64,000 nt of DNA, taken from contig NZ_KE387165.1 of the NCBI RefSeq assembly GCF_000430545.1, positions 728 to 64,727 on the forward strand, written 5' to 3'. The stretch's first letter is position 1. The number at the start of each line of letters is the position of its first letter. A program made the position numbers and the translations under genes. The notes beneath the pieces were generated by a model. That model worked only from the letters and a program-made list of their open reading frames with translations, was not told the DNA's origin and searched no databases. The stretch is from Tenacibaculum ovolyticum DSM 18103. Its GTDB lineage: Bacteria > Bacteroidota > Bacteroidia > Flavobacteriales > Flavobacteriaceae. This document shows positions 62,123 through 63,765 of this stretch, in pieces.

Positions 62123-62662
62123 CTAACCGCAAACTTTACAATCGTCTTTATCTTGAATTTCACCAACTAATTTACCATCATCATTTAAAATAAAACCACA
62201 ACAATCCATAAACCCTTTAGCTATTAATTTACGTGCTCGCTGAATTTGTGATTTTGTGGTTGGTAAACTTTGCTTTAAAGTCGTTGCAACTTCTTGTTGT
62301 TTTAATCCTTTAATATCTGATAAAAATAAAGGATCTCTATATTTTTTTGGTAAGTTTTGTAAAATACCACGCAAACAATCTTTTTCTGTATGCGTATGCT
62401 CTTCTATTTTTGTTTCCGTTTCAAAATTAGCTAGTTCAAAAGTTTTATTTGTACTTTTAAAATAGTCCATTATAGCGTTTCTAGCAATGGTGAATATCCA
62501 CGCCTTTAATTTCGTAATATCTTTTAGCGTATGAAGCTTTGTGTGTATTTTAATAAAAGTGTCTTGCAAAATATCATCTGTAACCGTAGCGTCTTTAACC
62601 TTACTTAAAATAAAGTATTTAACGTCATCAGCATATTTTGTCCAAACTTGATTTGTTGTCAT
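62123..62662 (-). CDS. sigZ: SigZ-type ECF RNA polymerase sigma factor
   Basis: A 179-residue sigma-70 family protein: region 2 (ATVTDDILQDTFIKIHTKLH, LKAWIFTIARNAIMDYFKS), region 4 (LPKKYRDPLFLSDIKGLKQQ, EVATTLKQSLPTTKSQIQRA), then the SigZ tail FMDCCGFILNDDGKLVGEIQ ending DKDDCKVCG. The four C-terminal cysteines could bind metal and act as a sensor (inference). A 14-bp inverted repeat lies upstream, then a Cys-rich peptide gene and DUF3703, all on the same strand. Confidence 0.9.
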   Translation of the reverse strand: MTTNQVWTKYADDVKYFILSKVKDATVTDDILQDTFIKIHTKLHTLKDITKLKAWIFTIARNAIMDYFKSTNKTFELANFETETKIEEHTHTEKDCLRGILQNLPKKYRDPLFLSDIKGLKQQEVATTLKQSLPTTKSQIQRARKLIAKGFMDCCGFILNDDGKLVGEIQDKDDCKVCG

Positions 62663-62680: not shown

Positions 62681-62749
62681 TGTTATTACGAAGTCAAGGC
62701 TAATTTTCAATGAAACATTAGAAAAAACACCTTATACTTCGTAATAACA
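62681..62749. promoter_or_regulatory. 14-bp perfect inverted repeat upstream of sigZ
   Basis: TGTTATTACGAAGT (62681-62694) is repeated exactly in inverted orientation (62736-62749), 41 bases apart, filling most of the gap between sigZ and the Cys-rich peptide gene. It could be an operator pair or form a stem behind the peptide gene. Confidence 0.55.
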
Positions 62750-62769: not shown

Positions 62770-62874
62770 TTAACAATTGCAGTTATTACATGAACAGCTT
62801 TCGCATGTGCAGTTTGTACAACTTCCTGTTTTACAACCGTCACAATTACACGTACATTGATTTTTATATTTCAT
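62770..62874 (-). CDS. 34-residue cysteine-rich, metallothionein-like peptide
   Basis: The minus strand encodes ATG (62872-62874) to TAA (62770-62772), 34 residues with 11 cysteines: MKYKNQ, then CTCNCDGC, KTGSCTNCTC, ESCSCNNCNC. All Cys are in CxC or CxxC spacing, as in metallothioneins, with no aromatic residue after Tyr3, and CxC is regularly separated by polar residues. Chance occurrence of such a frame in 25-30% GC DNA is very unlikely. It lies between DUF3703 and sigZ on the same strand, so a role in metal binding or delivery is plausible. I know of no named family that it fits. Confidence 0.72.
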   Translation of the reverse strand: MKYKNQCTCNCDGCKTGSCTNCTCESCSCNNCNC

Positions 62875-62929
62875 GATATTTAATCTTTAAATTCATATAG
62901 TAGACTTATTTATATTTAAAAAGATGCAT

Positions 62930-63271
62930 TTATTTATAAAAATATTTTTGAAGTTCTTTTCTAATAGGCATGGGCTTTATTGGCGAAATATTTGCTCCTC
63001 CAGTATTTCCTTTTGGTACCCAAATGTTTGTAAACAATATAGCAGCTAAAATTCTAGTAAACTGCCCAATTATTTCTTTTACGCTTATTATTCTAATTCC
63101 GTAAATAAACATCCAACAATGAGATAACGTGTGCCTATACAAATGTTTTTGACCTAAAACATGAGCGTTTTCTAAATGATAAAAAGACACTTTAAAGCGA
63201 TTGCTTTTAAGTGCCTTTTTAGCCAATGTTAATTGATTGTAATATTCTTGTTTACGTTGTAGCTGTGTCAT
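62930..63271 (-). CDS. DUF3703 family protein
   Basis: A 113-residue protein with the whole DUF3703 pattern: FYHLENAHVLGQKHLYRHTL then SHCWMFIYGI, VKEIIGQFTRILAA and VPKGNTGGANISPIKPMPI. His and Cys clustered in the first half (HxxxAHxxxQxHxxxHxxxHC-like) could bind metal. In other bacteria DUF3703 genes often lie beside metal-resistance genes, which fits the Cys-rich peptide 55 bases downstream. It is probably soluble. Confidence 0.87.
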   Translation of the reverse strand: MTQLQRKQEYYNQLTLAKKALKSNRFKVSFYHLENAHVLGQKHLYRHTLSHCWMFIYGIRIISVKEIIGQFTRILAAILFTNIWVPKGNTGGANISPIKPMPIRKELQKYFYK

Positions 63272-63321
63272 AATTATATCGTTTTAAGAATATGACACTC
63301 ACTTATATAAAAAGATGCTTT

Positions 63322-63765
63322 TTAATGTATTTTTAATAAACTAATATCAAAAATTAAAACAGATCCTCCAGGGATTCCTGCATAGTTTTTGCTACCGTAT
63401 CCTAATTTTGATGGAATTAATAAAATACCACTTCCTCCTTCTTTAAAATAAGTAACACCTTCCGTCCATCCTCTTATTACGCTTTGTAAATTAGTTTTAA
63501 ACGTTGAGTTTTGATCAAATACTTTTCCATCTAAATAATAACCTTTATAAGCTATGGTTACAGTTGAGTTAGATGTTGGCTGCCCACCAGTACCTTCAGT
63601 ATTTATAACGTAGTATAAGCCTGAATCGCTTTTTTTAGCTGTTAGGTTATTATCCGCAATATATTTTACAATTTCAGCTTCATTTTGTGCGTCAAAATTA
63701 GGTTCTTCACTTGAACAAGAAAAGAATGCTGAAATAATTGTTAATAGGGATGCTATTTTTTTCAT
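63322..63765 (-). CDS. FKBP-type peptidyl-prolyl cis-trans isomerase lipoprotein
   Basis: A 147-residue lipoprotein (FFSCSS, Cys17) with an FKBP domain: VTIAYKGYYLDGKVFDQN, SVIRGWTEGVTYFKEGGSGI and LLIPSKLGYGSKNYAGIPGG. Active-site residues of FKBPs (Tyr, Phe-Asp, Trp of RGWxEG, Tyr of GYG) are present. It assists folding outside the cytoplasm. It follows the amidohydrolase gene at the right edge. Confidence 0.93.
   Translation of the reverse strand: MKKIASLLTIISAFFSCSSEEPNFDAQNEAEIVKYIADNNLTAKKSDSGLYYVINTEGTGGQPTSNSTVTIAYKGYYLDGKVFDQNSTFKTNLQSVIRGWTEGVTYFKEGGSGILLIPSKLGYGSKNYAGIPGGSVLIFDISLLKIH

Follow-up and report, generated by a model that had tools for sequence, protein, structure and literature searches.

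On the minus strand of the window (the whole 64-kb stretch of DNA that was analysed) lies a short, cysteine-rich reading frame that appears to belong to a new family of metallothionein-like peptides; the sigma factor to which these are usually coupled is probably autoregulated and has a cysteine cluster built in. The explanation that best accounts for the locus as a whole, and one that we consider likely, is that a sigma factor, autoregulated and equipped with its own cysteine sensor, drives production of the peptide; the latter would then be a metallothionein-like thiol peptide of small size, probably cytoplasmic and able to bind metal. Reading in the direction of transcription, the genes run in the order DUF3703 (63271–62930), peptide (62874–62770) and SigZ-like sigma factor (62662–62123).

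The peptide gene (62770–62874, minus strand) is defined by its translation, its linkage to the sigma gene and its pattern of substitution. Translated from 62874 to 62770, the frame reads MKYKNQCTCNCDGCKTGSCTNCTCESCSCNNCNC: 34 residues of which 11 are cysteine, with the spacing C-x-C-x-C-x2-C-x4-C-x2-C-x-C-x2-C-x-C-x2-C-x-C; i.e. a small protein with the CxC/CxxC arrays that are a trait of metallothioneins. Its cysteine count tops that of the 153 ATG-started ORFs of 25–60 amino acids in the window, the runners-up having 7 and 6, and the maximum per window in 20 simulated first-order Markov windows was 4–7. The frame itself and a cysteine content beyond chance, both claimed by the original prediction, are thus borne out. 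The window copy matches no family in Pfam or NCBIfam; amongst its relatives, none of 33 members finds a Pfam family at E<=10, and a single one of the 33 has an NCBIfam match, to an unrelated parallel beta-helix repeat (E 0.044). Known metallothionein families were therefore set aside as its identity, no curated profile of either database having matched. A search of solved structures with the peptide gave one meaningless match (E 7.7). In open-licence PubMed Central, where absence counts for little, no paper on the peptide was found among the matches listed, none that brings SigZ and metallothionein together and none on DUF3703; within the same corpus, the combination of sigma factor, metallothionein, ECF and autoregulation had Mycobacterium SigC as its sole match.

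On comparative grounds the frame is a real gene, strongly conserved in marine flavobacteria. With a cut-off of E<=1, a protein search picked it up in 69 of the 97 genomes that make up a genus sample and, counting at E<=0.1 with some of the matches weak, in 71 of 397 genomes from 49 of 237 genera in a family sample (Flavobacteriaceae-level); when a phylum sample was searched with a profile, 5 of its 395 genomes matched, each belonging to the same Flavobacteriaceae-level family as the window. The 59 named loci include Tenacibaculum, Polaribacter, Lacinutrix, Kordia, Flavicella, Lutibacter, Xanthomarina, Gelidibacter, Winogradskyella and Sinomicrobium, along with three Saprospiraceae MAG contigs. 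No copy of the peptide was found in plasmid records.

Every one of the 57 loci retrieved through the genus and family searches preserves the 11 cysteines at the same spacing; a conservation that is partly selected, since these are the best-scoring matches, just as a larger set of 92 loci was chosen for the 11-Cys motif. Non-cysteine positions are kept as well, three examples being G in 56/57, T in 55/57 and N in 56/57, and both TGT and TGC occur at every one of the 11 cysteine positions across the 92 loci. For 630 pairs drawn from 36 genus-group loci, pS averages 0.782 and pN 0.097, giving a pN/pS of 0.12 in the peptide frame; the other two sense frames of the same stretch give 2.04 and 0.44. 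This comparison shows the peptide to be under strong protein-level selection. It also agrees with the original prediction, which had looked for cysteine conservation with synonymous drift (here pS 0.78, pN 0.097) and would have been contradicted by nonsynonymous changes at the level of intergenic DNA; the substitutions are overwhelmingly synonymous in frame.

As to linkage, a profile built from 12 sigma sequences shows an orthologue of the sigma gene in 68 of the 97 genus genomes (E below 1e-78, the next matches, which are paralogues, beginning at ~1e-44), and in 68/68 the peptide lies directly upstream on the same strand, with a gap of 5–170 bases in 67 and of 705 in one. The 29 genus genomes without the sigma gene contain a single weak peptide match (E 0.57), and four weak second matches (E 0.008–0.64) are found elsewhere in genomes that have the peptide–sigma pair. 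All 52 sigma-bearing genomes of the family sample fall within the 71 that have a peptide match, adjacency being checked there for the fetched loci only; the two genes adjoin in 57/57 first loci, and 52 of the 59 named loci have the sigma gene alongside the peptide, seven being without it. The conserved homologue beside sigZ, on whose existence the original prediction had staked itself, is thus present. In the genus and family samples the sigma gene is not seen without the peptide, and the peptide can exist alone: of 19 family-sample peptide genomes lacking the sigma gene, 13 hold a peptide-like ORF (11 with the full motif, two with one cysteine changed or missing), and reading of the remaining six revealed no peptide-like ORF. 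Since these 13 keep the peptide ORF without the promoter-like block described below, the peptide does not depend on the SigZ-like factor.

Two further observations concern the arrangement of these genes. In one genome (G283:C3:142262-142798) the sigma gene has two internal stops and the adjoining peptide match spans only residues 13–34; the two seem to be decaying together. Separately, a 74–79-aa, probably membrane-bound protein follows the peptide in four sigZ-less loci (L092 1246–1485, L100 6152–6376, L102 2250–2489 and L105 3056–3286). It has a His/Cys-bearing C-terminus (EHIHIKPLISEVHESC in one form) and matches no noteworthy Pfam family; tblastn failed to detect it in any of the 13 family-sample loci that lack the sigma gene and have the peptide ORF.

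Upstream of the peptide we see a bipartite promoter-like block, GCATCTTTTT-N12-GTCTAtTAtatGAA, with its GTC usually placed 29–34 bases before the ATG. In the window it takes the form TGCATCTTTTT-N12-GTCTACTATATGAAT (62891–62928, minus) and, at 39.9 bits, is the best match of the window to a matrix from which seven near relatives, the window itself included, were left out. The second-best match, GCATCTTTTT-N12-GTCATATTC (63282–63319, minus; 9.0 bits), stands before DUF3703 and is a weak variant, with GTCA in place of GTCT. Amongst 92 distinct upstream regions from the loci selected for the 11-Cys motif (85 sigZ-linked, 7 not), a regular expression that allowed spacers of 9–16 matched 82, with a spacer of 12 in 82/82. 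All of these are sigZ-linked (82/85), the other three (L011, L041, L110) being variants recognised by eye, and the block is found in 0/7 of the sigZ-less loci, which hold the seven lowest leave-out matrix scores. Three loci score low despite a visible block (L116, −10.1; L110, 4.7; L095, 9.7 bits; median 38.9).

The exact pattern GCATCTTTTT-N12-GTCT occurs 90 times in the 97 genus genomes, as compared to two copies of a reversed control: 63 just before the peptide, 17 at 408–436 bases before it and 10 elsewhere. At 17/17 of the more distant sites DUF3703 starts 14–37 bases further on. None of the 29 sigma-less genus genomes has an exact copy, and 5 of the 68 sigma-bearing ones have none before the peptide. 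As block and sigma gene co-occur in this way—the block being found only in sigma-bearing genomes—we infer that the SigZ-like factor reads it, and propose that the block before the peptide represents its −35/−10 elements. The original prediction missed both this probable sigma-dependent promoter and the hairpin that separates the peptide from the sigma gene (see below); its metallothionein-like reading is itself supported.

Loose matching in the source genome returned four sites (the reversed control, two), of which two correspond to the blocks before the peptide and DUF3703, a third lies inside an ORF and was set aside, and the fourth follows a SigZ-like paralogue. The last of these, a GCATCTTTTT-N13-GTC site (L125; C8:107068-107093), has downstream of it an ORF that by eye resembles a sterol desaturase; an exact N12 site likewise comes after a paralogue in a second genome (G045:C8:681253-681278). 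Both are possibly examples of a related promoter, belonging to a paralogous sigma factor.

The sigma factor (179 aa; 62123–62662, minus) can be placed amongst the ECF factors, as its Sigma70 region 2 and region 4_2 domains (Sigma70_r2, Sigma70_r4_2) both exceed the gathering score. It misses the equivalog cut-offs for SigZ, with 169.9 vs 212 bits for NF007215 and 155.9 vs 168.65 for TIGR02959, so that ‘SigZ’ serves only as a nearest-family label; the name used in the original prediction is right as to the nearest family, but falls below the curated cut-offs of both models. The four cysteines with which this neighbour was said to end are indeed there: its C-terminal part (62126–62215, minus) carries C154, C155, C175 and C178 as CC...CxxC, and the inter-domain linker contains the motif H91-x4-C96 (62375–62392, minus). 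Aligning the window protein with 34 sequences from the 52 named sigma genes shows C96, C154, C155, C175 and C178 to be invariant (35/35), with H91 kept in 34/35. A predicted structure (mean pLDDT 81, pTM 0.42) resembles solved ECF factors over residues 1–158, its tail being modelled with moderate confidence. Elsewhere, one genome (G004; L184, from 2359 onward; G004:C22:9352-9579) has a partial second sigma copy, consisting of region 4 and a cysteine tail with CxxC, ~1 kb behind the sigma gene. The source genome contains four further matches to the SigZ model at E<=1e-20 (L128–L131, on C18, C8, C23 and C10), two of them close paralogues; at the same threshold plasmid records hold only two SigZ relatives, both in Priestia.

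Taking these elements together, our preferred reading is as follows. The SigZ-like factor would transcribe the peptide–sigZ pair from its own block, and DUF3703 from the second copy. A surplus of thiophilic metal, with Zn or Cd the likeliest, would bind the cysteines of the sigma factor (C96, C154/155 and C175/178), which in its metal-bound form would become active without an anti-sigma factor; the induced peptide would in turn bind the metal, remove the signal and so close the loop. The hairpin might allow much peptide and little sigma factor to be made, damping what would otherwise be a positive loop. By analogy with the animal alpha domain, eleven thiolates would suit a cluster of about four Zn or Cd ions. 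To a stricter version we give an even chance: that this is a metallothionein with a dedicated sigma factor, in a two-gene homeostat free of any anti-sigma factor, where the cysteine cluster senses thiophilic metal and the peptide switches the response off; the same even chance covers, jointly, the sigma factor transcribing little besides the peptide–sigma operon and DUF3703.

The main pointer to Zn, Cd or Pb is the plasmid context of DUF3703, the second probable member of the regulon (62930–63271, minus; PF12487, E 1.3e-36), with a promoter-like block of its own. The original prediction had DUF3703 following in the same direction; it is on the same strand, but does not follow the peptide, as it lies upstream in transcription order. 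Relatives of DUF3703 occur in 91 plasmid records, of which six were opened; five of the six have metal-efflux genes nearby, namely CDF, CzcA-type, P-type ATPase, CadR or cation-transporter genes within 5 kb, and the sixth none. These neighbours help the metallothionein-like reading, which stands as the best one. Within the 59 named loci DUF3703 appears in 12, and a further 27 clusters of neighbouring genes are each shared by 5 to 20 loci. The idea that efflux genes are conserved beside the peptide–sigma operon was considered and rejected, since none of the ten recurrent clusters scanned (one member each, against Pfam) is a metal-efflux family, a result that counts against our preferred reading; the ten comprise a mutase, an amidohydrolase, a peptidase, a radical SAM protein, DUF1684, an AsnC-type protein, an MFS protein, a weak MauE match and two unmatched. 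Upstream of DUF3703 in the window, an ORF at 63322–63765 (minus) looks by eye like an FKBP-like lipoprotein, and is also near the operon in some relatives.

This metal context bears on the strongest of the alternatives, in which the thiol peptide would serve redox or nitrosative buffering, or carriage of Cu(I) or Fe-S, and the sigma factor would sense oxidation and not metal. Ligands that are all cysteine would be equally apt for Cu(I) or for redox chemistry, and the paired cysteines of the ECF tail could form disulfides; set against this, the surroundings of DUF3703 point to Zn/Cd/Pb efflux, and the C-terminal cysteine clusters of CorE, CorE2 and OrbS, in the portions of their descriptions available, answer metals. 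We regard the redox or Cu(I) alternative as unlikely.

Between peptide and sigma gene the window is predicted to fold into a stable hairpin (TGTTATTACGAAG...CTTCGTAATAACA, then a short T run; 62681–62749, minus) that is terminator- or attenuator-like, the intergenic stretch having a folding z of −6.4. When each stretch was compared with 60 shuffles, 72 of 79 peptide–sigma intergenic stretches gave z <= −3, their sequences being mostly dissimilar (six of the 85 sigZ-linked loci were not folded: three are shorter than 30 bases, one is 702 bases long and two had no sigma start found). The hairpin is not universal, as 9 of 68 genus loci have only 5–8 bases from peptide match to sigma gene and hence no room for one. 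The motif GTAA[AC]TTTA is present in 23 of the 79 stretches versus 0.6 expected; going by the Bacteroidota promoter consensus, we take this to be a possible weak vegetative promoter of the sigma gene.

With 11 of its 34 codons specifying cysteine and a stable hairpin separating it from the sigma gene, the frame would also be compatible with a leader-peptide attenuator, in which translation of a cysteine- or metal-sensing leader sets the terminator, and with it the level of sigma factor, the peptide itself being inert. However, conservation extends to the non-cysteine positions, with a pN/pS of 0.12; two loci (L006 and L020) with 3 and 5 bases between the genes have no hairpin at all; and the peptide ORF occurs without the sigma gene in 13/19 sigma-less family genomes and 7/59 named loci. 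Such an attenuator is accordingly improbable in our view.

The genus sample contains 27 further matches to the sigma profile, comprising 26 paralogues and one sigma-gene fragment. The terminal CxxC, a Cys-rich ORF within 700 bases upstream and the block are each absent from 26/26 paralogues; the CC pair is found in seven, six of which have four tail cysteines and no peptide gene upstream. The cysteine tail alone does not therefore track the peptide, as 7/26 paralogues have the CC pair without it, and we weigh our preferred explanation slightly lower on that account. The same counts have a bearing on whether the peptide is chiefly a regulator, a metal-bridged partner that supplies the sigma cysteine tail with metal, or withdraws it, in the manner of a small anti-sigma factor. 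The sigma gene is never found without the peptide (68/68), and paralogues that have no peptide also have no terminal CxxC, as this would lead one to expect; yet the peptide survives without the sigma gene, and CC tails persist in those seven paralogues, making for a very improbable account. Finally, a chance ORF or remnant, as a short frame without a family match might be taken to be, is rejected as having next to no likelihood, being contradicted by conservation with synonymous drift (pN/pS 0.12), by the sigma linkage (68/68) and by the Markov simulation (maxima of 4–7).

The family of metallothionein-like peptides (~30–36 residues) is of a length that gene callers and annotation tend to miss. 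A SigZ-like branch with only a borrowed name gains a probable output, promoter and sensor, and DUF3703 a functional hint. Should the proposed loop operate, two genes would between them supply sensor, transcription factor and buffer; the whole would be a metal-response circuit of very small size, and could serve as a testable model for sigma factors with built-in metal sensors.

Amongst known bacterial metallothioneins, those of the SmtA type (cyanobacteria, Pseudomonas) commonly have His ligands and a GATA-type zinc-finger fold, according to the available part of a published account (PMC10612145). The peptide is like them in being small, Cys-rich and probably metal-buffering; it is unlike them in packing 11 cysteines into 34 residues, in the absence of His from the window copy and of any Pfam match, and in having a sigma gene beside it. 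The MymT-type copper metallothionein of mycobacteria is, in the same part of that source, Cys-rich with a motif unlike other bacterial metallothioneins (PMC10612145); at the level of that description, it and the peptide are alike as Cys-rich bacterial peptides.

Amongst the systems closest to the sigma factor are CorE and CorE2, formerly ECF44 and now ECF238. In the portions of the sources available, CorE2 of Myxococcus, which carries a CC pair, responds to Cd and Zn (PMC8999054), no linked anti-sigma factor was found for CorE, and no metallothionein gene features in either description. As in these proteins, so far as described there, the window sigma factor has a C-terminal cysteine cluster (C154, C155, C175 and C178 in 35/35) and a linker cysteine; it differs from them in that its linker has one Cys with a His (H91-x4-C96) in place of the CxC of CorE-like factors, and that its tail, CC-x19-CxxC, has a spacing of its own. 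SigZ of Bacillota, represented by one plasmid record of Priestia megaterium, is homologous and has in common with the window protein the linker Cys and CC pair, but lacks the terminal CxxC, and the 6.5 kb read from that record contain no short ORF rich in Cys. OrbS of Burkholderia cenocepacia, in the available part of its description, carries a C-terminal four-Cys metal sensor on an ECF factor; it differs from the window protein in its Cys spacing, siderophore regulon and inhibition by Fe(II). CorE, CorE2 and OrbS provide precedent for on-board metal sensors in ECF factors, of the kind we propose here.
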